The position numbers and the translations under genes were made by a program. Below the pieces are notes generated by a model. It saw nothing but the letters and a program-made list of their open reading frames with translations. It did not search any database and was not told the DNA's origin. A DNA stretch of 64,000 nt, from the NCBI GenBank assembly GCA_945888375.1, contig CAMCZZ010000002.1:1-64000 (forward strand). Direction: 5' to 3'. Positions 27,096-53,519 of this stretch are shown piece by piece (within the stretch, counting starts at the first letter, position 1; each line of letters starts with the position of its first letter). The stretch is from Akkermansia muciniphila. GTDB taxonomy: Bacteria; Verrucomicrobiota; Verrucomicrobiia; Opitutales; Opitutaceae.

Positions 27096-28220
27096 CTAGC
27101 TAATTCGAACTGGCATTACAACACAAATGAAGTTTGCGTCCGTCTTTAAAACGCCTGGACTTACCTCGTCTTTTAATTCGAAATATACATCATCCTTCGT
27201 CAAGGCACGCAAAGGATCGATAATAAACTGCGGATTAAAAGCTACTTGCAAATCAGGACCACTATATGCAATAGCCATGGTCTCATTTGCTTCACCAAAA
27301 TCAGGACTGCTAGCGCTTATTTCTAAGTGGTTACTGCTTAACTTGAGTTTTACGGAATTGCTTTTATCCGAGCAAACCAATGCCGCACGGTGCACACACT
27401 CCACAAGAAGTTCCCGGTCAAGTTTAATTCGTTGATGGGTTTCCTTTGGTATAACCTGTTGATAATTCGGATAATTACCTTCAACTACTTTGCTATACAA
27501 ATAAATCGAATCAATTAAACCAGTTTCAGGATTATCTGCATGAATTTGGAAAGCGGCCCGACGTTCATTAAATGAAATTTTTAATTTCTCTCCTTTATCG
27601 AGCATTCGTAAAAGTTCTGATACAGTTTTAGCAGGTAAAATAATAGCACCGGCTTTATCTGTAGGAACTTCTATTTCTTTGTTTATTAAAGCAAGACGGC
27701 GGCCATCCGTTGCAACTAGAGAGAGTTTCCCATCTCTAAAATTGAAGTAAACACCATTTAAAATGTAACGAGTCTCATCAGTAGATTGAGCATACGAAAC
27801 GCTCTTAAGCATGCCGATTAGTTCAGCCTGGTCCAAAGTAAAAGTCTTATCATCTCCAAAATCTGGCAACGGAGGAAATTCATCTTTTCCTATGCCCATA
27901 ATTCGGAAAATTGAACCTCCAGATGTTAGCTTAACTTGATGATTTGGGGACGCATCAAAAGTAACGTCCAACTGGGGTAATTCTCGAACAATTCCAGCGA
28001 GCCGTTTAACCGGCAGGGTAACTGATCCAGTTTCCTTAACATCAGCTTTTATTTTAGCCCGAATTCCCAAATCTAAATTTGTCGTTGTTAGGGTAATAGC
28101 GTCTTTTTCTGCCTCAATCAGAACATTGCTTAGGATAGGCATAGTTGCTTTTGAACCTACGACGTTAAGCACCTGCGCGAGGCCGTTGCTGAAGTGATCT
28201 CGATTGATCTTGAATTTCAT
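27096..28220 (-). CDS. dnaN: DNA polymerase III beta subunit (sliding clamp)
   Basis: The 374-residue product has the length and three-domain repeat of bacterial beta clamps. Landmarks are [37 protein letters not shown] at the start, here read as separate N-terminal blocks, [31 protein letters not shown] in domain 2, and the C-terminal CVVMPVRIS tail that forms the protein-binding cleft. It tethers polymerase III to DNA. dnaA and recF are not adjacent. The gene is AT-rich and its upstream spacer is the most AT-rich part of the window. Confidence 0.96.
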
Positions 28221-42850: not shown

Positions 42851-43861
42851 ATGATCGACTCCCTCCTCGAAAAAAACCTGCTGCCGGACTGGCTTGTGCG
42901 CATCGGCATCCGGCGTTTGTTGGCGCAACGCATCCGCGAGGAGGAGCGCCGCTACGATCGCGCGGTCTATGTGGCCGATCTCAAGACCCGCGCTCTGGCC
43001 GAGCAGACGGCGGCGGCCAACGAGCAGCACTACGAGGTGCCGACAGCGTTTTACCAACGCTGTCTGGGGCGTAGGCTTAAATACTCGGGCTGCCTTTATC
43101 CGACCGGTCGGGAGACGCTCGATGAGGCGGAGGAGCTCATGCTCGCCCTTTACGCTGAGCGGGCGCAGCTGGAGGATGGGCAACACATCCTCGAGCTCGG
43201 CTGCGGGTGGGGTTCGCTTTGCCTCTACAACGCGGAGCGGTTTCCGAATTCCCGCATCACGGCCATCTCCAACTCCCGCACCCAAAAGGAGCACATCGAT
43301 ATCGAGGCGCGGAAACGCGGCCTCAAAAACCTCCGTATCCTCACCTGCGATATCAATGCCTTTGATATCGAGTCCGGCCAGTTTGATCGCGTCGTCTCGG
43401 TCGAGATGTTTGAGCACCTCAAAAACTACGACCTGCTCTTCAAAAACATCGCACGCTGGCTGAAACCGGGCGGCCTGCTCTTCACCCACATCTTTACCCA
43501 CAGCAGGTTCAGCTACCATTTCGTGGCGCGGGACGAGACCGACTGGATGAGCCGCTACTTTTTCACCGGAGGCCAGATGCCCGCGCACGATTTGTTCATG
43601 CAGTTCCAGGCCGATTTGAAGTTTGTGCAGGATTGGAAGGTAAACGGCCGCCACTACCAGCAAACCGCCGAGCACTGGCTGAAAAACATGGATGCGCATC
43701 GCGACGAGATCCTGCCGCTTTTCCGCGACACCTACGGCCCCGACCAGGCCGAGAAGTGGTGGGCCTACTGGCGGGTCTTCTACCTGGCTTGCGCGGAGCT
43801 CTGGGGCTACAAGCGCGGCGAAGAGTGGCTGGTCAGCCACTATGTTTTCCGCAAACCATAA
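42851..43861 (+). CDS. Cyclopropane-fatty-acyl-phospholipid synthase-like methyltransferase
   Basis: A 336-residue SAM-dependent methyltransferase from the ATG at 42851; a TTG at 42827 would add eight residues. The SAM motif is ILELGCGWGSLCLY, followed by ITAISNSRTQKEHI and VVSVEMFEHLKNYDLL, matching the Cfa/mycolic-acid methyltransferase family. The N-terminal acyl-binding domain of true Cfa enzymes is shortened. Together with the DUF1295 gene upstream it probably modifies unsaturated phospholipid acyl chains, but the product is uncertain. Confidence 0.82.
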   Translation: MIDSLLEKNLLPDWLVRIGIRRLLAQRIREEERRYDRAVYVADLKTRALAEQTAAANEQHYEVPTAFYQRCLGRRLKYSGCLYPTGRETLDEAEELMLALYAERAQLEDGQHILELGCGWGSLCLYNAERFPNSRITAISNSRTQKEHIDIEARKRGLKNLRILTCDINAFDIESGQFDRVVSVEMFEHLKNYDLLFKNIARWLKPGGLLFTHIFTHSRFSYHFVARDETDWMSRYFFTGGQMPAHDLFMQFQADLKFVQDWKVNGRHYQQTAEHWLKNMDAHRDEILPLFRDTYGPDQAEKWWAYWRVFYLACAELWGYKRGEEWLVSHYVFRKP

Positions 43862-43867
43862 GTTTGC

Positions 43868-43903
43868 ATTATGTAATGTTTGATATAACAAACATCGCAT
43901 AAT
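43868..43903. promoter_or_regulatory. 36-bp palindromic operator overlapping the hsdM start
   Basis: ATTATG (43868-43873), two bases, ATGTTTG (43876-43882), a 6-bp centre, then CAAACAT (43889-43895), two bases and CATAAT (43898-43903). The arms are perfectly complementary at 13 of 15 positions each. The last two bases of the palindrome are the first two of the hsdM ATG (43902), and TATAAC inside it could be a -10 box. The encoded HsdM has an XRE-type HTH domain at its N-terminus, so binding here would be autoregulation. The sequence symmetry is observed; binding is inferred. Confidence 0.75.
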
Positions 43904-45752
43904 GACCGATTTCGACCCCTCCACTCTTCTTCCCGCCCTTCGCCACCGCCAAAATTGGAGCCAAGAACAGCTCGCCGCCCGTCTCGGCGTTTCCTTCGCT
44001 ACCGTCAATCGCTGGGAGGGCGGCAAATCCGCCCCCCAACGCGCTCAACGTGAGGCCATCGCCGCCCTCGCCGCCGATCTCGGCCTCGCCACCGACGCCA
44101 CCACTCCCGCCTCGTTCGCCCCTTCCGTCGCCGCCTCCTCGGATGCCGACGCACCCGCCGCCCCCAAACCCCGCCGCGGCCTCGCCCGCTCCACCGTCCT
44201 CGGCAACAAATCCATGGAGCAGATGCTCTGGGACGCCGCCTGCGCCATTCGCGGCGAAAAAGACGCGCCCAAGTTCAAGGACTACCTCCTCCCCCTCGTC
44301 TTCCTCAAACGCCTCTCCGACGTCTTCGACGACGAGGTCGCCCGTCTCACCCAGACCTACCGCGACGCCGACACCGCCACCACCCTCATCGAGGCCGACC
44401 ACACCCTCGTGCGCTTCTACCTCCCGCCCGAGGCCCGCTGGCCCGTCCTCTCCGGCCGCGCCCCCCACGCCTGGCCCGAGGGCAAAAAACCCGCCAGCCT
44501 CGGCGAACACGTCACCACCGCCACCCGCGCCGTCGCCCGCCAAAACACCCAGCTCCTCGGCATCATCGACCAGGTGGACTTCAACCACGTCGGCGCCGGC
44601 GGCGAACGCGAGATCAGCGACTCCGCCCTGCGCGGTGTCATCGAGATCCTCTCCGATCCCCGCTACCGCCTCGGCCTGAAAGACGTCGAGCCCGACTTCC
44701 TCGGACGCTGCTACGAATACCTCCTGCGCAAATTCGCCGAGGGCGCCGGCCAGAGCGCGGGCGAGTTTTTCACCCCCACCGAGGTCGGCTTCCTCATGGC
44801 CGAGATCCTCCAGCCCCGCCCCCGCGAGGATGCCTACGACTACGCCTGCGGCTCCGCCGGCCTCCTCATCAAGCTCCAGCTCGTCGCCGAGAAACGCGAC
44901 CCCGCCGCCAAAAAACTCCCCCTCCGCCTCCACGGCCAGGAACTGCAAGGCTCCAGCTACGCCATCGCCTGGATGAACGTCATCATCCACGACCTCCAGG
45001 CCGAGATCGTGCGCGGCGACTCCATGCGCAATCCCAAGTTCCGCGCCGAGGGCGGCACCCGCCTGCGCCAGTTCCCCCTCATCATCGCCAACCCGATGTG
45101 GAACCAGACCTTCGATCCCGACGTGTTCGAGCACGACGGCTTCGACCGCTTCGAACGCCAGGGCGGCAACACCTCTGGCAAAGGCGACTGGGCCTGGCTC
45201 CAGCACACCGCCGCCAGCCTCGCCGACGGGGGCCGCGCCGCCATCGTGCTCGATACCGGCGCCGTCTCGCGCGGCTCCGGCAGCAAAAACGAGGACAAGG
45301 AACGCGCCCTCCGCCAGTGGTTCGTCGAGCAAGACCTGATCGACGGCGTCGTCCTCCTGCCCGACAACCTCTTCTACAACACCACCGCGCCCGGCGTGAT
45401 CATCTTCCTCCGGCGCGGCAAACCGAAGGACAGACGCGGCCGCATCACCCTCGTCAACGCCGCCGGCGAGGCGAAAAAAGGCACGCCGAAAAACTACCTG
45501 CCACCCGAAGCCGTGCAAAAAATCGCCGCCGCCTACCACGCCGGCGCCGACGTTCCCGGCTTCGTCAAAACCATCACCACCGCCGAAGCCGCCGCCAACG
45601 ATTTTAATCTCAGCCCGAGCCGCTTCGTGGCGGCGGAGATCGATAACCAACTCCGCTCGCTGCCCGACATCGTCGCCGAACTCACTGCGCTCGATACCAA
45701 GTCCGCCGCATTAGCCTCCGAACTCACCGCCGTCTTGGGGAAACTCGCATGA
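43902..45752 (+). CDS. hsdM: HTH-HsdM fusion: type I DNA methyltransferase subunit
   Basis: The 616-residue modification subunit of a type I restriction system, adding methyl groups to adenine. Residues about 8-62 are an extra XRE helix-turn-helix ([27 protein letters not shown]). A Pro/Ala/Ser linker is followed by the HsdM N-terminal helical domain ([16 protein letters not shown]) and the N6-adenine methyltransferase domain, with SAM motif [10 protein letters not shown] (about 313-322) and [10 protein letters not shown] (about 287-296). The catalytic motif IV reads NPMW (397-400) instead of the usual NPPF/Y/W. The coding strand is very GC-rich. hsdS overlaps its stop by 4 bp. Confidence 0.94.
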
Positions 45753-46975
45753 GCACGCCTTGGCCCACGACCACCATCGGCGAATTGTTCGACATCGGTG
45801 CGGGTAAATCCGTCACCCCGGCATCTCGCGGACAAGATCCCAAGCGTCCGTTTCTGCGCACCTCCAACGTCCTCTGGGGCCGCTTCGATCTCACCGACGT
45901 GGACACCATGTTTTTCACCGATGACGAGTTCGCGGTGAAGAATCTTCGCTCCGGCGACTTGCTGGTTTGTGAAGGTGGCGACATCGGCCGCGCCGCCGTC
46001 TGGCAAGGCCAGTTGGCCGAGTGTAGTTTTCAAAATCACCTCCACCGGCTCCGCCCGAAACGCCCCGACATCAGCCCCGAGTTCTACCAATTCGCGCTCG
46101 AGGGAGGCATCACCCTGTTCGGTCTGATCGAGGGCGTCGGCAATCGCACGACGATCCCGAATCTGTCCCGCAACCGGCTCGCCGAGCTGGCGGTGCCTAA
46201 GCCGCCCATCGACGAGCAACGAAAGATCGCGGCGGTGTTGGGGAAGGTGCAGGCGGCGGTGGCGGTGGAGGGCGACCTGGTGCGGGTGGCGCGCGAACTC
46301 AAGCAAGCCGCCCTCCGCCAGCTCTTCACCCGCGGCCTCCTCCACGAACCCCAAAAACAAACCACCCTCGGCCCCGTCCCCCAAAGCTGGGTTGTCGAGC
46401 CGCTTAGCCAGGCCGCCTTCCTTCAGCGAGGGCGATTCACGCATCGCCCACGCAACGAACCCCGTTTCTACGGAGGAAAAACGCCTTTCGTTCAAACGGG
46501 CGACGTTGTGCGTTCGGACGGATGGGTTCGTGAACACACCCAAACGTTAACCGACGAAGGTGTCGCGATAAGCCGGGTCTTCCCCGCCGGAACCATTTTG
46601 ATCACGATTGCCGCCAACATCGGCTACTCAGGAGTGCTCACCTATGCGTGCGCCGCGCCCGACAGTCTTGTTGGTATTACGGCAAGCGAGGACTTCGATA
46701 CCACTTATCTGAGCTACTATCTTCAAACTCAGCAAAAGCGGATGGACGAGTTGGCAGCACGCGGAACCCAGAAAAACATAAACATTCAGTTCCTGACACC
46801 ATGGCCGGTGCCCAAGCCGCCCATCGCCGAGCAACGCGAAATCGCCGCTTTGCTGGCGACGCTGGACGCGAAGATCGCGCACCACGAGGCGAGGCGGGCG
46901 CTGTTGCGCGAGCTCTTCCGCACCCTCCTCCACGACCTCCTCACCGCCCGCCGCCGCGTCACTTCCCTCGACTAA
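45749..46975 (+). CDS. hsdS: Type I restriction system specificity subunit
   Basis: A 408-residue specificity subunit with the two-fold repeat organisation of HsdS. Each half ends in a conserved coiled-coil block: [25 protein letters not shown] (about 150-175) and [25 protein letters not shown] (about 350-375). The target-recognition domains are about 1-150 and 195-350; they set the two halves of the methylated sequence, which cannot be predicted by eye. The second recognition domain is less GC-rich than flanking sequence, as expected for frequently exchanged domains. The start overlaps the hsdM stop as ATGA. Confidence 0.93.
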
Positions 46976-47013: not shown

Positions 47014-47919
47014 ATGCCCGCCAAACGCTACTCCGACTCGGCCGTCAGCGCCGCTTTTCCCGAGCTGTCCGGCATCCGTCACTTCGACGCCGGAAGCTAC
47101 AAGAACGTTTACACCGTCACCACCGGCTCCGGCCGCGAGGAGATGCTTAAGATCGCGCCAATTCTACAGGACGAGAGCACCGATGACGCGCGCGCTCTCC
47201 GTCAACAGGAGATCGGGCGGTTAGTGCGAGAGACCAAGGTGCTGGGTTCCTGCCAGTCCCCTTTCGTTGTTCATTTGGGCTCTATTACTTCGAGCATCCG
47301 GCAGATCGAGGGCGAGTCCTGCTTCGTCTATTCAGAAGAACGCCTGCCCGGCTCCAGCTTGGAAACCGTGATCGAACTCGGGGCTGGTGCGAAACCCGCC
47401 GAGGCCGAGATCAAAAGCCTGCTGCGCTGTCTGGTGCTGGGCATTCAAGCGCTGTGGACATCGGAACACAAAACCGTCCACCGGGACATCAAACCCGCAA
47501 ATATTTTCAGCACCCGATTGCCAGACAGGCCCTATGTTTTGATCGACTTGGGCATCGCCTACAACGTCACCGAGCCCGGACTTACCGTGCGCGCGGATCA
47601 TGTCCCGCATACGCCGCTTTATATGGCCCCGGAAATGGTTGATTCCAATTTCCGCGACACCCTCAGCTATCGCGCGGATTTATACGCGGCGGGCGTAACC
47701 GCCTTCGTTTTTGCCACCGGCGGCGTGCATCCCCTCGCCAAACGAGGAGAGGGACTCTCCAAAACCTATCATCGCATCATCACCCAAGAACCCACCCGCT
47801 TGGTCGCTGAACGACCCGATTTATCGCCGGATCTCTGCGGTCTCGTGGACCAATTTCTGAAAAAGAAGCCCGCTCTCCGCCCCGGTAATTTCACTCTGAT
47901 CCTCAACCAACTCGCCTGA
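47014..47919 (+). CDS. Serine/threonine protein kinase in the RM operon
   Basis: A 301-residue cytosolic kinase domain with no transmembrane helix. The glycine-rich loop is degenerate (FDAGSYKNVY, about 25-33) and the ATP-binding Lys is in EEMLKIAP (Lys46). The catalytic loop is HRDIKPANIF (Asp158), the magnesium loop reads DLG rather than DFG (178-180), and the APE motif is YMAPEM (205-207). All residues needed for activity are present. It starts 38 bp after hsdS and its stop is 2 bp before the next gene, so it belongs to the hsdM-hsdS transcript. A role in defence is inferred from context. Confidence 0.9.
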   Translation: MPAKRYSDSAVSAAFPELSGIRHFDAGSYKNVYTVTTGSGREEMLKIAPILQDESTDDARALRQQEIGRLVRETKVLGSCQSPFVVHLGSITSSIRQIEGESCFVYSEERLPGSSLETVIELGAGAKPAEAEIKSLLRCLVLGIQALWTSEHKTVHRDIKPANIFSTRLPDRPYVLIDLGIAYNVTEPGLTVRADHVPHTPLYMAPEMVDSNFRDTLSYRADLYAAGVTAFVFATGGVHPLAKRGEGLSKTYHRIITQEPTRLVAERPDLSPDLCGLVDQFLKKKPALRPGNFTLILNQLA

Positions 47920-47921
47920 CC

Positions 47922-49124
47922 ATGAAACTCTACGCCCAGCACGGCTTTCAGCCCGGCAAACGCATCACCCAAGGCTTGGCGGACGGCCTGATTGATGGAG
48001 TCATTTATAGCGCCAAAGACACCGATCCGTCCCGACTGGAAGAAGTGCTCCGTGCACAAGCACCCCGCTCGGACCGGTTTCTCGATCCACAATACTACGC
48101 GTGCATAGTCGCCACGCAGCCCGGCGCCCGACTTGGCTGGTTGCTTAGCGAGGAGGACGGCTATCCTTACTTTCGTGCTCGGCGTCGTGCCGAGCTTGAG
48201 CGCGAGGTAAATGTGCAAGCCGACCTCGAAGCCTGCATCGCGTTTCAAGCACCGCTTCCGCTTACGGCGATTATCGCGCCCAATATCGTGATACGCCGAT
48301 CCTTCGATTCAGTCGAGGGGACCATCGCTAAGGATTTCATCCGCAACACGGCGATTGTCGCCCAAAGAATCGCGCCGGGAAAACCTGTCTATGGCACCCT
48401 CGCGGTATCTACGGCTGCGCTTGGTGATCGGGTGGAACTGCAAAACTTCCTTCAAGAAATCACGGAAATAGAGTCTCCCCCCGTGGGCCTTTATCTTTTG
48501 CTTGAGCGACCAGACCAAGCGATCCCGGTAAGTCTCACCGAGCAGGATGTCTTGTCGCGTTGGATGCTCATCAACCACACGCTGAAAATAAACGGATTCA
48601 AGTTGATCAATGGCTATACCGACGGGATTTCTCCCTACATCGGAGCAGTGGGAGGCGATGCAGTAGCAAGTGGTTGGTTTAATACACTCAAGGCATTTTC
48701 TTTGAAAAAATTCGAGCCTGCGGTGGATCAATTTGCCCGTCGCGCCGTGCCGCGTTACACGAGCAAAGCCTTGCTCCGAAGCATTCGCTATACGGAGTTC
48801 CACGATCTGCGCGATACGTTCCCTGAGGTGCTAAACGGCCGTCCTACCGATGCTTACTTCGACAAAGCCGAAGGCTCTGAACCCGCGGAGGCCGCTTACG
48901 AAGCACTTCAGAACTGGGACGCACTGCGCATCATGATCAGTCAATGTATCTCAGGAAGTGTCGAAGACGCTCTCACGAATTGCCACCTGGCGCTGAACGA
49001 CGCGCAGGATCTTTATGGGCGAATCACAGGCCTCGGATACACCCTTCGCGATAGATCCAGCGACGCTCACATCGAACCGATTCGCTACGAACTCAAAAAA
49101 TTCGCCGAACTAGCCGAGATCTAG
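47922..49124 (+). CDS. Unrecognised 400-residue protein paired with the kinase
   Basis: No family was recognised. The 400-residue sequence is soluble, with alternating hydrophobic strands and helices: PLTAIIAPNIVIRRSF, VYGTLAVSTAALGD, VGLYLLLERPDQ, INGFKLINGYTD, then GGDAVASGWFNTLKAFSLKKFEP. The repeated strand-helix pattern suggests a TIM-barrel-like alpha/beta fold, but that is a guess. Its start is 2 bp after the kinase stop, implying tight co-expression, and its 3' end overlaps the convergent nuclease-like gene by 15 bp. It may be the kinase's substrate, sensor or effector. Composition is less GC-rich than hsdM. Confidence 0.75.
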   Translation: MKLYAQHGFQPGKRITQGLADGLIDGVIYSAKDTDPSRLEEVLRAQAPRSDRFLDPQYYACIVATQPGARLGWLLSEEDGYPYFRARRRAELEREVNVQADLEACIAFQAPLPLTAIIAPNIVIRRSFDSVEGTIAKDFIRNTAIVAQRIAPGKPVYGTLAVSTAALGDRVELQNFLQEITEIESPPVGLYLLLERPDQAIPVSLTEQDVLSRWMLINHTLKINGFKLINGYTDGISPYIGAVGGDAVASGWFNTLKAFSLKKFEPAVDQFARRAVPRYTSKALLRSIRYTEFHDLRDTFPEVLNGRPTDAYFDKAEGSEPAEAAYEALQNWDALRIMISQCISGSVEDALTNCHLALNDAQDLYGRITGLGYTLRDRSSDAHIEPIRYELKKFAELAEI

Positions 49125-49685
49125 GTGGCGATGGATAATATCAATCGCCTTTTCGCGGGCACGTTCGTTCAGCGGACGGCGAACGCGGGGCGTGGTATGT
49201 TTGATGATCCGCTCGGTTGCGGCGTCAAATTCCCACAGGCCCACGTTGAGACTGCGAAATGTCTCAAGAAAACCGAGTGCGATACGAGCGGTGTCCGGCG
49301 GCAATACGAGCAACGCCCGGTTCGCAAAGTAACGATAGCGGGACGCCTGCTGAAGGCCTTTTCTCCAGTCCTTCAACTTCGCTTCAACTGCAGTTACATG
49401 GATTCGCTTGCTCAACGCCAACGCCGAGAAATCGCTCGAATCGGGCGTTTTTTTCCAAGCAATCCAAAGAACATCGGCACGCCCAAAGCCATCCAAGCCA
49501 AACTCCCGGCCAGCTGCGAACTCGTGACCGGAAAGACTCGTTTCCTGTGCAAAGTAGGCGCGTTCGAACTGGGCAAGAAAGTTGCTTTCGCCACGCTTCG
49601 ATGCGGAGGCAGCCGGAAGGTTTCGGCGCGTGTTATGGGCACCGAAACGTATGACGCGGGGAAGTTCGAAGGTCGTCAGACGCAT
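49110..49685 (-). CDS. PD-(D/E)XK nuclease-like protein, antisense within RM locus
   Basis: A 191-residue protein on the strand opposite to its neighbours. Residues about 62-110 give a nuclease-like core: GLDGFGRADVLWIAW supplies the Asp, and HVTAVEAKLKDWRKGLQQASRYRYFANRALLVLP supplies the E-x-K followed by the QxxxY helix common in restriction-endonuclease-like folds. The N-terminus is a charged region and the C-terminus is basic. Its 3' end overlaps the 400-residue gene by 15 bp, tail to tail. It could be a defence nuclease or a DNA-binding accessory. The family was not identified. Confidence 0.65.
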   Translation of the reverse strand: MRLTTFELPRVIRFGAHNTRRNLPAASASKRGESNFLAQFERAYFAQETSLSGHEFAAGREFGLDGFGRADVLWIAWKKTPDSSDFSALALSKRIHVTAVEAKLKDWRKGLQQASRYRYFANRALLVLPPDTARIALGFLETFRSLNVGLWEFDAATERIIKHTTPRVRRPLNERAREKAIDIIHRHLDLG

Positions 49686-50139
49686 GTTTTATTGGGAAGA
49701 AACGAAAGAGTTGAGGGGGTGCAGGTCCCAAGCTCCAATATCATACCCTTGCGGGTTGCCTTCCTTGCGGAAGGTTTGGGTGCTGCTTGCGCTCGCCTGC
49801 GGTCAAAAAAATGCGCCATGTGCGCTTTCTCACAAGCAAAGAAATGCGGCACTGCCGTGGTCTATTGGTGCCGGGAGATAAACTTTACCACGCCGCGAGC
49901 ATTCTCGCGCTTGTCGCGCCAAGCTTTTACGTTCTTGTTTTCATGTAACATACCCGCCACGCCTCGGGCGTTTATCCGCAAGGATGACGCACTGCGCACC
50001 AGGGCGGGTGCTTTGTTTTCGGGTCGGTTCTGGACCTATCCTTGCGGAAGGTGCACTTACGGAGCCCTTGTCGGTCTAGGATCCATTTCCAACTCCCTGC
50101 GTGCGGCGTTGTTTTCCCTGTGCAAGTCCTGATCAACCC
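49686..50139. other. 454-bp divergent spacer between nuclease-like gene and hsdR
   Basis: No convincing gene was found. It must hold the promoters of the minus-strand nuclease-like gene and of hsdR. CCTTGCGG recurs: within CCTTGCGGAAGG at 49763-49774 and 50040-50051, in CCTTGCGGG at about 49748-49756, and inverted as CCGCAAGG near 49976-49983. The repeats may be regulatory or remnants of inserted sequence. Their arrangement was read by eye. Confidence 0.5.
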
Positions 50140-53100
50140 ATGACCAACCTCGCCCTCGAAGCCGCCACCGTGCAGTTCCCGCTCGTCCGCCATGCGGTGG
50201 ACGCGGGCTGGACGTTTGTGTCCGAGGCCGAGGCGCTTATCCGGCGCGGCGGCGAGGGCGGGCTGTTTTTCCACGACGAACTCCGCGCGGCGCTCCTGCG
50301 GCTCAACCCCGGCGTCGTCACGGCGGAAAACGTCGCGTCCGTCATCGCCGAAATCGAGGCCGCGCCGCCGACCATCGAGGGCAACAAGCAGCTCCTCGAA
50401 TGGCTGCGCGGCCAGCGCACAACCTTCGTCGCGGCGGAGAAACGCTCGCGCAACGTGCGGCTGATCGACTTCGACGCGCCGCTCGACGCCACCCGCAACG
50501 TCTTTCAAGTCACGGTCGAGTGGGCCTTTCGCCAGCAGTGGAAAAAGGGCAACCGACCCGACGTCGTCTTCCTCATCAACGGGGTGCCGGTGGCGCTCGT
50601 GGAATGCAAAAACCCGAAGCTCAAAGGCGCGATGGAAAAGGCCCTCGTGCAGCTCCGACGCTACGAGAAGGAGACGCCCGAAATGCTGGTGGCGCCCCAG
50701 GTGTTCAACCTCACACACCTGATCGAATATTTTTACGGCGTCACGTGGCCCGGTTCCTACGGCAACAAGACGGTTTTCAACTGGCGTCACGACTACGCCG
50801 CGGCCAAGGCCGCTCTCACCGCCGACTACGTGCAGCCCGACTCGCCCCCCCTCCACACCGGCGACGGCGAGCTGAGACCGGGCGAAACCCTTCCGCTGGC
50901 GGCCGAGGCGCCCACGACCACCACAGCCCGCCCGACGAGCTACGGCGACCACGTGCGGACCTTCTTTGACCGCGAGCGTTTTCTCACGCTGCTGCGCGAG
51001 TGGATTTTGTTTTTTACCAAAGATGACGACCTGAAAAAAACCGTTCTCCGCCAGCACCAGACCCGCGCCGTCGTGAAAGTGGTCGAGCGTTGCCGCGACC
51101 CGCATAAAACCCGCGGCCTCGTGTGGCACACGCAAGGCTCGGGGAAGACTTTTACGATGATCACGGCTGCGCGGCTGCTCCTCTCCGGGCAAAGTGCAGG
51201 CCCGGTGCCGACCGTCTTGCTCGTCGTCGATCGCAATGAACTCGAAGGCCAACTCGCCGGCTGGGTCGACCGTTTGCTCGGCGAAATCAGTCAGGCCGGT
51301 GTCGCAGTAGAGAAAGCCTATCGCCGCGACCGGTTGCGCGAGCTGTTGGCGGCCGATTTTCGCGGACTCATTATCACGATGATCCACAAGTTCGACGGGA
51401 TGCCGGCGCGCATCACGCCGCGGGGAGATTTCTTCGTGCTCATCGACGAGGCGCACCGCTCCACCGGCGGCGACCTCGGCAACTACCTCATGGGTGCGCT
51501 GCCCGCGGCGACGTTCATCGGCTTCACCGGCACGCCCATCGCGAAGACGGAAAAAGGCGAAGGCACGTTCAAGACCTTCGGCCTCCAAGACCCCGACGGT
51601 TACCTCGACAAATACCCCATCGCCGAGTCTATCCGCGACCGCACGACGTTGAAACTCCGTCACAGTCTTGCGCCGAGCGAACTCACCCTCGACCAAGGTC
51701 TGCTCGAAAAGGAATTCCTCTCACTCGCCGAAACCGAAGGCGTTTCGGACATCGACGACCTCAACCGCGCCCTCGACCGCGCGGTGAACCTCAAGACTTT
51801 CCTCAAAGCCGATCACCGCGTCGCGCAAGTGGCCGCCTTCGTCGCGAGACATTTCCAGGAAAATGTCGCCCCTCTTGGCTACAAAGCCTTCCTTGTCGCG
51901 GTAGATCGCGAGGCGTGCGCGAAATACAAACAGGCCCTCGACCGCCTGCTCCCACCGGAGTGCTCCCAGGTGGTCTATACGAAAAGCCCCAACGATGTCG
52001 TCGAGCGCCCGCTCGTGGCCGAGCTTCAGCTCGACGAGGTGGCGGAAAAGGCGGTGCGCAAGACCTTCCCAAAGCCCGGCACACAACCGCAGATCCTCAT
52101 CGTCACCGACAAGCTGCTCACCGGTTACGATGCGCCGATCCTCTACTGCATGTATCTCGACAAGCCGATGCGCGACCACGTCCTCCTGCAGGCCGTCGCC
52201 CGTGTGAACCGGCCCTACGAAGACGCGCGCGGGGTCGAGAAACCCTGCGGCCTTATCATCGACTTCGTCGGCATCCTCAAAGACCTCAAAAAAGCCCTGG
52301 CCTTCGACTCGGAGGACTATAGCGGCGTGATCGAGGGTCTCGACGTGCTGTTCGGGCGCTTCCGCGAGCTGATGGACGGCCCGGCGAAGCGTTATCTGCC
52401 GACCGCTTCCGGCGCGGACCGCGATGCGCAGCTCGAAAAGCTCCTCTACGAAACACTCTTCCGGAAGGAAGCGCGCGAGGTGTTCACGGAGTTGTTCAAA
52501 GAGATCGAGACGCTCTACGAAATCCTCTCCCCCGATCCCGCGCTCGCCGGCGACATCGCGCCCTACAATCGCCTCGCCGATCTTTACGCGATGATGCAGG
52601 CGGCCTACGGCCAGACCACGAGCTTCGTCGGTGAACTGGCGCACAAGACCGCCGCCCTCGTGCAGCAAAATGCCGTCGCCCACGGGCTCGACCGCCTCAC
52701 GAAGACCGTGGAGTTCGACGAAGCGGCGCTCGCCGCGCTCCGGGTGCGTCGCGGCTCCGACGAAGAAAAAGTCATCAACCTCGTCCGCAGCCTCCAGCAG
52801 GACGAGGCGAAGACGGAGCCGCACCTCATCTCCATCGCGGAGCGCGCCGCCTCGGTCATGGAAGCGCTCGACGAGCGCCAGGCCTCCACCCAGCAGGCTC
52901 TCGAACAACTCGACGCGCTGATGGCTGAACGCCTCGCCGCCGAGAAAGCGCGCGCCGCCAGCGGCCTCGCGGCAGGCCCCTTCGGTGTTTACTGGGAACT
53001 CCAGCGTGAAGGCTACCCGGAGGACCGCGCCAAGGCCCTCGCCCTAGATATCGAGGACGCCTACGTGCGCTTCCCCAACGCCAGCGACAACGCCGACGAA

Positions 53101-53214
53101 CTGCGCCAGCTCAAGGCGGATATCTACAAGGTGCTGCTCAAAATCGTGAGCGGCGTCAAAATGATCGCCCTCGCCGACAGGGTCATGCGCGCACGGCCCG
53201 GCTCATCGTCATGA
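50140..53214 (+). CDS. hsdR: Type I restriction enzyme, restriction subunit
   Basis: A 1024-residue endonuclease-translocase from the ATG at 50140; the frame extends 13 residues upstream without family character. The nuclease domain has PD (140-141) and ECK (155-157) in RPDVVFLINGVPVALVECKNPK. The SF2 motor has Walker A HTQGSGKTFTM (GSGKT 333-337), DEAH (436-439) in VLIDEAHRSTGGD, and later motifs FIGFTGTPIAKTEK and QAVARVNRPYE. It cleaves unmethylated DNA after translocation when bound to HsdM2S. It is separated from hsdS by three other genes, unlike the compact arrangement in classical loci. Confidence 0.95.
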   Translation: MTNLALEAATVQFPLVRHAVDAGWTFVSEAEALIRRGGEGGLFFHDELRAALLRLNPGVVTAENVASVIAEIEAAPPTIEGNKQLLEWLRGQRTTFVAAEKRSRNVRLIDFDAPLDATRNVFQVTVEWAFRQQWKKGNRPDVVFLINGVPVALVECKNPKLKGAMEKALVQLRRYEKETPEMLVAPQVFNLTHLIEYFYGVTWPGSYGNKTVFNWRHDYAAAKAALTADYVQPDSPPLHTGDGELRPGETLPLAAEAPTTTTARPTSYGDHVRTFFDRERFLTLLREWILFFTKDDDLKKTVLRQHQTRAVVKVVERCRDPHKTRGLVWHTQGSGKTFTMITAARLLLSGQSAGPVPTVLLVVDRNELEGQLAGWVDRLLGEISQAGVAVEKAYRRDRLRELLAADFRGLIITMIHKFDGMPARITPRGDFFVLIDEAHRSTGGDLGNYLMGALPAATFIGFTGTPIAKTEKGEGTFKTFGLQDPDGYLDKYPIAESIRDRTTLKLRHSLAPSELTLDQGLLEKEFLSLAETEGVSDIDDLNRALDRAVNLKTFLKADHRVAQVAAFVARHFQENVAPLGYKAFLVAVDREACAKYKQALDRLLPPECSQVVYTKSPNDVVERPLVAELQLDEVAEKAVRKTFPKPGTQPQILIVTDKLLTGYDAPILYCMYLDKPMRDHVLLQAVARVNRPYEDARGVEKPCGLIIDFVGILKDLKKALAFDSEDYSGVIEGLDVLFGRFRELMDGPAKRYLPTASGADRDAQLEKLLYETLFRKEAREVFTELFKEIETLYEILSPDPALAGDIAPYNRLADLYAMMQAAYGQTTSFVGELAHKTAALVQQNAVAHGLDRLTKTVEFDEAALAALRVRRGSDEEKVINLVRSLQQDEAKTEPHLISIAERAASVMEALDERQASTQQALEQLDALMAERLAAEKARAASGLAAGPFGVYWELQREGYPEDRAKALALDIEDAYVRFPNASDNADELRQLKADIYKVLLKIVSGVKMIALADRVMRARPGSSS

Positions 53215-53519
53215 AGCGCGTCCTGCTCACACCGATGGAAGAGTTCCGACATCGCGTCGCGCAGTGGGCGCGCCGCCTCCAGGCCCAGCCGCGACAAATC
53301 ATGGTGATGCGCATGACCCGCAAGTGGGCCTCGTGCTCGACCCGAGGTCGGGTGTGTTTCGCCTACGACTTGCTCAAGGTGCCGCCGCGGCAACAAGACT
53401 ATGTGATCGTGCACGAACTCCTTCATCTGCGCCTTCCGAACCACGGCCGGGTTTTCAAGGCGCTGCTTGCCGCGCATTTGCCGGATTGGCAAAAGTTGCA
53501 CGACCGGCTCGGGCGCTAG
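53211..53519 (+). CDS. Short YgjP-like metallopeptidase downstream of hsdR
   Basis: A 102-residue protein whose HELLHLRLPNHGRVFKALL segment gives the HExxH zinc site with a downstream His, as in the DUF45/YgjP-like family. KWASCSTRGRVCF just upstream is the family's other signature. The usual N-terminal part of YgjP (about 100 residues) is absent. The start overlaps the hsdR stop as ATGA. Genes of this family are often found beside type I restriction systems; whether they cleave a protein there is unknown. Confidence 0.85.
   Translation: MKRVLLTPMEEFRHRVAQWARRLQAQPRQIMVMRMTRKWASCSTRGRVCFAYDLLKVPPRQQDYVIVHELLHLRLPNHGRVFKALLAAHLPDWQKLHDRLGR

Follow-up and report, generated by a model that had tools for sequence, protein, structure and literature searches.

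A Type I methylase subunit fused to a helix-turn-helix domain is a probable repressor of its own operon

The window, i.e. the whole 64-kb stretch of DNA analysed here, carries a Type I restriction-modification operon with hsdM, hsdS and hsdR all present, and its methylase subunit HsdM begins with an XRE-type helix-turn-helix (HTH) domain. The promoters of such HTH-HsdM fusion genes share the half-site TATAGCAAA, which is located between the -35 box and the start codon. The array of half-sites is linked to the HTH domain, is conserved and specific, keeps a 9-bp spacing and stands in front of genes in a recurrent operon order. Judged from the sequence, it is highly probable that HsdM autorepresses its own operon by blocking RNA polymerase.

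The hsd operon and its HsdM subunit

The hsdM gene (43902..45752, + strand; ORF and Pfam) encodes a protein of 616 amino acids, and its end overlaps by four bases with hsdS (45749..46975, + strand), which was identified by a Methylase_S domain match. The product of hsdR (50140..53214, + strand) contains HSDR_N and SWI2/SNF2 motor domains (the latter matched by SWI2_SNF2) as well as a T1R_D3-like domain, and it scored 422.3 bits with TIGR00348, above the cut-off of 284.55. The hsdR ORF is open from a GTG at 50101; the ATG at 50140 was taken as the start. Directly 3' of hsdR and with a 4-base overlap lies a gene for a YgjP-like metallopeptidase (53211-53519). An M48 gene likewise belongs to the RptR island of enteropathogenic E. 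coli (EPEC), according to extracts of its description.

Between hsdS and hsdR, the window contains a protein kinase gene (47014-47919), U1 (47922-49124) and, on the opposite strand, U2 (49110-49685). Neither U1 nor U2 matched a family in Pfam, PADLOC, NCBIfam or PHROGs. The kinase-U1-U2 set was also found in loci L043 and L063, and kinase-U1 in L064, whose stretch ends there (3/78 loci). By analogy with DarTG in the RptR island, these genes may constitute an embedded defence cassette. As they separate hsdS from hsdR and one of them is read from the opposite strand, hsdR of the window may lie outside the control of the hsdM promoter and may have a promoter of its own. Assignment to the methylation-associated defence system (MADS) was rejected, the scores for MAD2 (37.1/720 bits), MAD5 (24.7/400 bits) and MAD6 (42.7/460 bits) all being below the NCBIfam cut-offs. 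Across the family, hsdS is located downstream of hsdM on the same strand in 72/78 loci, and hsdR is found downstream in 55/78 loci with limited flanks, many of them cut short (on the same strand among the loci listed). Repression at hsdM would thus extend to M, S and usually R.

An HTH of about 55 residues at the start of HsdM, as described in the earlier note, was confirmed by matches to Pfam HTH_31 (residues 10-62; 35.7 bits, cut-off 27) and HTH_3 (residues 13-45; 34.1 bits, cut-off 23). In an AlphaFold2 model of HsdM (77 aligned sequences, mean pLDDT 83.5), residues 6-59 form a compact helical domain apart from the HsdM body (pLDDT 82-94 in 10-residue blocks). Based on Pfam and the model, the HTH domain was assigned to residues 1-62 (43902..44087, + strand); by the HTH fold, residues 32-39 or so would form the recognition helix that contacts the DNA. 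The domain alone gave weak sequence matches, the best being Atu1735 (E 0.005) and HipB (E about 0.02). It is followed by a predicted flexible linker with pLDDT below 50 (residues 67-100; 44100..44201, + strand) and by the Pfam domains HsdM_N (residues 105-249) and N6_Mtase (residues 264-579), which together span 44214..45638 (+ strand).

Motif IV of HsdM proteins has the consensus (N/D/S)PP(Y/F). In the window protein it reads NPMWNQ (residues 397-402; 45090-45107), and NPMW is invariant across all 77 aligned rows of the family. The same NPMWNQ is present in L010, an HTH-less sister protein. By both Foldseek and phmmer, the HsdM body is nearest to the PacII M subunits (PDB 7vru, 7vs4), which are closest among the HsdM of solved structure in both sequence and fold and whose two chains have NPPY and NPPF as motif IV. 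In the window protein, the sequence match begins only with residue 98 and, unlike the window HsdM, the matched chains of 499-504 amino acids have no HTH. With TIGR00497, the hsdM equivalog, the window HsdM reached 150.3 bits compared with a curated cut-off of 242.75 and is therefore not assigned to this equivalog.

Half-site arrays in hsdM promoters

The proposed operator of the window is an inverted repeat of 38 bp (43867..43904, centre 43885/43886), which was detected by a repeat search combined with shuffles. Its two arms (43867-43885 and 43886-43904) are 19 nt each without a gap and are 84% complementary, with 16 of 19 positions paired; the last three bases are the ATG of hsdM (43902-43904), and TATAAC is found inside at 43884-43889. 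The palindrome of the earlier note is real and does cover the start codon, but its size, given there as 36 bp with 13 of 15 matches per arm, had to be corrected. The TATAAC that had been taken for a promoter box does lie within the palindrome, yet a promoter scan revealed no consensus sigma-70 promoter at 43780-44000; probably, TATAAC is the centre of the operator and not a -10 box. A weak candidate -35 sequence, TTGCAT (43864..43869, + strand), is located near the place of TTGAC in relatives (-37 to -35, with the A of ATG as position 0).

When the local 80 nt were subjected to dinucleotide shuffling, the score of the palindrome was reached in none of 3000 cases. The 64 kb contain five inverted repeats with a score of at least 11.5, the palindrome among them, compared with an average of 0.5 in 20 dinucleotide shuffles; the window is thus somewhat rich in strong inverted repeats, and the palindrome is not special by score alone. 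This richness, the AT-rich composition and a beginning only six bases past the end of the upstream ORF (43861) would be in line with a chance AT-rich inverted repeat or a terminator of the upstream gene. The likelihood of such an origin is practically negligible in view of the local shuffles and the conservation of the half-sites, and the element is not among the terminator-like sites found. In the relatives L043 (92% identical) and L045 (82%), a palindrome occupies the corresponding position, and changes in one arm are matched by changes in the other: among the three sequences, a G-C pair is replaced by A-T at one position, and T-A corresponds to C-G at another.

For the analysis of the family, the best 80 of at least 540 confirmed relatives from a search of genome contigs were retained; as these were chosen by their match to an HTH-bearing query, the sample favours HTH carriers. 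Together with nine viral loci (L128-L136) and the window (L001), they gave a pool of 90 loci for promoter counts, from which two were excluded: in L044 the contig ends within the gene, and L112 contains no start. Of the remaining 88 loci, all with a start, 79 were kept as non-redundant, with under 75% identity over positions -60 to +20. Start codons were set by a rule, the distance to the HTH, and were independent of annotation. L137, L124, L125 and the same-genus ortholog L006/L126 were not used; the latter is 94% identical, is truncated before residue 40 by the end of its contig and contains an in-frame TAG.

In a tree of the 79 fusions, 21 HTH-less HsdM proteins and two truncated members, a single branch (SH-aLRT 99) had all 79 fusions on the same side; the tree was calculated by a quick method and has long branches among the HTH-less rows. 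Four members form the HTH-less sister clade of the fusions. According to the tree labels, the fusion clade has members in 18 named phyla, including Verrucomicrobiota, Pseudomonadota, Actinomycetota, Chloroflexota and Deinococcota. A search of 288 genomes with a sister-clade protein gave matches in five, two of them HTH-bearing, and the same protein had no relative in a viral scan; the sister clade thus proved too rare to enlarge the control set. Nine HTH-bearing members were found on contigs of the IMG/VR viral collection. Fusion L133 had no match in 72,556 plasmid records at E<=1e-100 or in 50,697 phage records at E<=1e-60. With the window protein, 369 plasmid records matched at E<=1e-60, all under 60% identity, and in the 40 matches listed the alignments begin at residue 91 or later. 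The idea that the fusion arose from a stand-alone XRE gene was rejected: tblastn with three HTH domains against 27 loci (L009-L034 and L127), which extend about 1.5 kb upstream at most, yielded a best E of 0.12, which is not credible.

The earlier note had named the presence of the palindrome upstream of close HTH-HsdM homologues as a test in advance. L043 and L045 passed it, but the palindrome is not universal: a long palindrome was significant in 25/79 non-redundant loci (p<=0.05; p<=0.01 in 19 loci; 100 shuffles each). The element common to the family is the 9-bp half-site, arranged as dyads and 9-bp direct repeats. The pattern TATA(G/A)CA was present in 58/79 non-redundant fusion promoters but in 0/78 far-upstream stretches, and each of the 18 named phyla has it in at least one locus. 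It was detected in none of 26 HTH-less HsdM genes (180 nt each), five of which have TTGAC. These controls, which superseded an initial set of nine, come from one phylum and include only four of the sister clade, and L012 was excluded from them. The contrast between fusion and HTH-less promoters lends support to the earlier suggestion that the methylase subunit may act as repressor of its own operon. Elsewhere, the single half-site pattern occurred three times in 697,516 bases of the loci, and a further copy is present in the window (position 27489). The dyad core TGNTATANCA was found in 25/79 promoters and nowhere else in these bases. The possibility of another operator, at hsdR or at some other place in the loci, was rejected, the dyad core being confined to hsdM promoters, and none lies near hsdR of the window. 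L041 and L042, members without HTH, have no site; both are from viral contigs, they are only two, and the absent start of L041 may be due to contig rearrangement.

If the array were bound by a host regulator instead of the HTH of HsdM itself, the site would hardly be expected to recur upstream of fusion genes in 18 named phyla and to be absent from the 26 HTH-less HsdM promoters. In addition, the 18-bp core of the window palindrome, TGTTTGNTATANCAAACA, has one exact occurrence in the 3.22-Mb genome, as expected for a dedicated local regulator. Inexact matches to the core were found at two further places (two and three mismatches), compared with one place for a reversed control pattern. We consider a host regulator highly improbable.

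A 9-column half-site model gave 306 matches in the 79 promoters, six in the 78 far-upstream stretches and a mean of 62 in base-shuffled promoters, but it was trained on the same promoters that it scored; cross-validation served as the held-out version. Trained on the 49 T-type loci, the model detected two or more sites in 28/30 S-type loci (0/29 far-upstream stretches; mean of 4.9 loci in dinucleotide shuffles). Conversely, training on the S-type loci recovered two or more sites in 43/49 T-type loci (0/49 far-upstream stretches; mean of 9.6 loci in dinucleotide shuffles), which gives a held-out total of 71/79 loci. In 17/18 phyla, at least one locus has two or more held-out sites. The counts by phylum refer to the 69 loci to which tree labels and record titles allowed a phylum to be assigned. 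The eight loci with fewer than two include five of the nine Actinomycetota loci, a weaker group in which 4/9 have two or more, and the only Kiritimatiellota locus, which has one held-out site.

The T-trained model, for which the window was unseen in training, recovered all four half-sites that the 9-column model had identified in the window. The two inner ones are strong, with TATATCAAA on the left (43879..43887, - strand, 14.2 bits) and TATAACAAA on the right (43884..43892, + strand, 14.9 bits). The two outer ones are weaker, one on the left (43870..43878, - strand, 9.8 bits) and CATCGCATA on the right, which adjoins the ATG (43893..43901, + strand, 9.4 bits). The window palindrome is thus built around the strong 14-bp dyad TTTGATATAACAAA in its centre, with a weaker half-site shifted outwards by 9 bp on either side, and represents one layout of a more general lattice.

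This lattice was also evident from the spacing of half-sites in other members. In-sample, 75 same-strand pairs were spaced by 9 bp, followed by 23 at 18 bp. In the held-out sets, 39 pairs of 9-bp direct repeats were counted for the T-type loci (0.25 in shuffles) and seven for the S-type loci (0.1 in shuffles); a spacing of 5 was slightly commoner in the latter (eight pairs; 0.3 in shuffles), probably because of an overlap effect of TATATA. Half-sites on opposite strands are mostly offset by 5, 14, 23 or 7, 16, 25, i.e. by steps of 9. In many members, the third of the direct repeats extends over the start codon (CATGACAAA). A threonine at codon 2 is encoded by ACA in 38/43 genes, compared with 3.6 expected from each gene's own codon use, indicating selection on the DNA inside the coding region. 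Codon 2 of the window gene is ACC.

Promoter architecture and proposed autorepression

The 67 promoters that lack a Shine-Dalgarno sequence are hardly conserved from -60 to -37, and the conserved part extends from about -36 to +8. It comprises a -35 box (T in 80% at position -35) and then an AT-rich motif that runs as far as the start codon and across it. A second layout was found in 12 loci, in which a Shine-Dalgarno sequence is present and the -35 box and the array are located about 20 bp farther upstream. TTGAC begins at -37, -36 or -35 in 40/79 loci and farther upstream in 10, i.e. it is present in 50/79 in all. A 17-bp spacer after TTGAC would place the -10 box at about -13 to -8 and the transcription start at the ATG, from which we infer a leaderless hsdM mRNA that starts at the ATG. 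A leaderless transcript has been reported for C.AhdI (PMC5333194).

We propose that the N-terminal XRE-type HTH, on its flexible linker, would bind the half-sites between the -35 box and its own start codon and that RNA polymerase would be shut out by occupied half-sites. Where the mRNA is leaderless, bound HsdM would also cover the start codon. In an HsdM-free cell, hsdM and the co-transcribed genes would be synthesized fast, and their synthesis would be throttled as HsdM accumulates, so that the circuit might have a homeostatic role. Repression as the sign of regulation is suggested by the location of the sites in the spacer, the -10 region and the start codon, by TTGAC in the relatives, by the lack of sites upstream of TTGAC, by a single array per system and by the linkage to the HTH. 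As a counterpoint, the window promoter itself is without a consensus match, though relatives have TTGAC.

The palindrome might also act at the RNA level, with a hairpin over the hsdM start codon that blocks translation and an HTH that has some other job. Indeed, the segment 43855-43915 folds at -16.8 kcal/mol (z -3.98), and none of 200 shuffles was as good. Over the 79 promoters, some excess folding was observed as well (mean z -1.34; 21 promoters below -2 and nine below -3). However, z was -2 or above in 58/79 promoters, while the half-site cross-validates in both halves of the family, and the direct repeats of many members are unable to pair with each other. Moreover, a transcription start at the ATG would place the hairpin outside the mRNA, and the half-sites go with the HTH, being absent from all 26 HTH-less genes. 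For these reasons, translational control by a hairpin seems a very remote prospect.

The idea of the earlier note that HsdM replaces a separate C protein holds for its repression half but not for its activation half. In the 50 loci with TTGAC, all 153 held-out sites (153/153) are located at or downstream of TTGAC and none upstream, where the site of an activator would be expected. A HsdM that behaves like a C protein, activating the operon at low level and repressing it at high level, is very unlikely by this count, even though the XRE-type HTH and the multiple sites would agree with it and C proteins are described as XRE-family proteins (PMC3978073). The match of the -35 boxes to TTGAC in 50/79 loci also implies that an activator seems unneeded.

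Beyond simple autorepression, HsdM might function as a self-titrating sensor whose removal from the operator during infection de-represses the M-S-R operon, which we regard as a rather unlikely extension. Possible triggers are antirestriction proteins that mimic DNA, of the Ocr/ArdA type, or a sudden excess of unmethylated target sites. If this were true, an attack on the enzyme would raise the supply of enzyme, and the response generated by the array with its 9-bp pitch would be cooperative and threshold-like, a property common to an old Type I clade in 18 named phyla.

Relation to known regulators of restriction-modification systems

Among Type II enzymes, autorepression by a methylase that carries a fused HTH is established (PMC12707154; PMC3978073; PMC3874152). 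According to these accounts, M.SsoII, M.Ecl18kI and M.EcoRII have, like HsdM, an N-terminal HTH fused to the methylase and an operator at the methylase promoter, which results in negative feedback. For EcoRII, repression is reported to depend on methylation (PMC12707154). The window HsdM shares with these dual-function repressors the N-terminal HTH and, by sequence and conservation, an operator on its own promoter. Hence it would work like a SsoII-type repressor and yet stand outside that Type II group. M.SsoII is described as a Type II C5-cytosine methylase with one 15-bp intergenic site, whereas the HsdM family has arrays with a 9-bp pitch that reach the start codon; the flexible linker was shown for M.SsoII but is only predicted for HsdM. 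Type II dual-function systems have separate R and M promoters, in contrast to the N6_Mtase domain, the Type I gene set and the collinear M-S-R order found here. The C proteins of Type II systems, as far as they are portrayed in these sources, resemble HsdM in their XRE-family HTH and in binding to their own promoter. They are encoded by a separate small gene and form an activator/repressor switch, whereas here the HTH corresponds to residues 1-62 of HsdM and no site lies upstream of the -35 box.

For Type I systems, the modes of control described in the sources consulted are proteolysis of HsdR by ClpXP and a few separate local repressors (PMC12255303; PMC12707154). In the Type I defence island of EPEC, RptR is reported to repress the Type I operon locally, as proposed here, through 9-bp direct repeats, which in that case overlap the -10 box, and a cassette lies between hsdS and hsdR as in the window (PMC12255303). 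Unlike the HTH of HsdM, RptR is portrayed there as a separate 9-kDa protein, not fused to HsdM, and its repeats contain TAGCTA (PMC12255303). Similarly, the Type I operon of the Mycoplasma gallisepticum hsd locus is apparently repressed by a local regulator, the product of a C-like gene (PMC12707154); this gene is described as separate and upstream of hsdM, whereas the HTH of the window is fused to HsdM.

Among the matches listed in a search of open-licence literature at the level of titles and abstracts, no regulatory HTH in the HsdM of a Type I system was found. Autorepression by an HTH-methylase is known in Type II, and within the literature searched the Type I case presented here is apparently new. 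It would be an instance of a methylase acting as repressor outside Type II. Autorepression is a prediction that can be tested in more than a dozen named isolates, and it adds a promoter logic that may have to be allowed for when DNA is moved into bacteria with HTH-HsdM. Taken from the sequence data, there is a Type I clade whose methylase subunit is very probably a transcription regulator and whose half-site arrays are recognizable from sequence.
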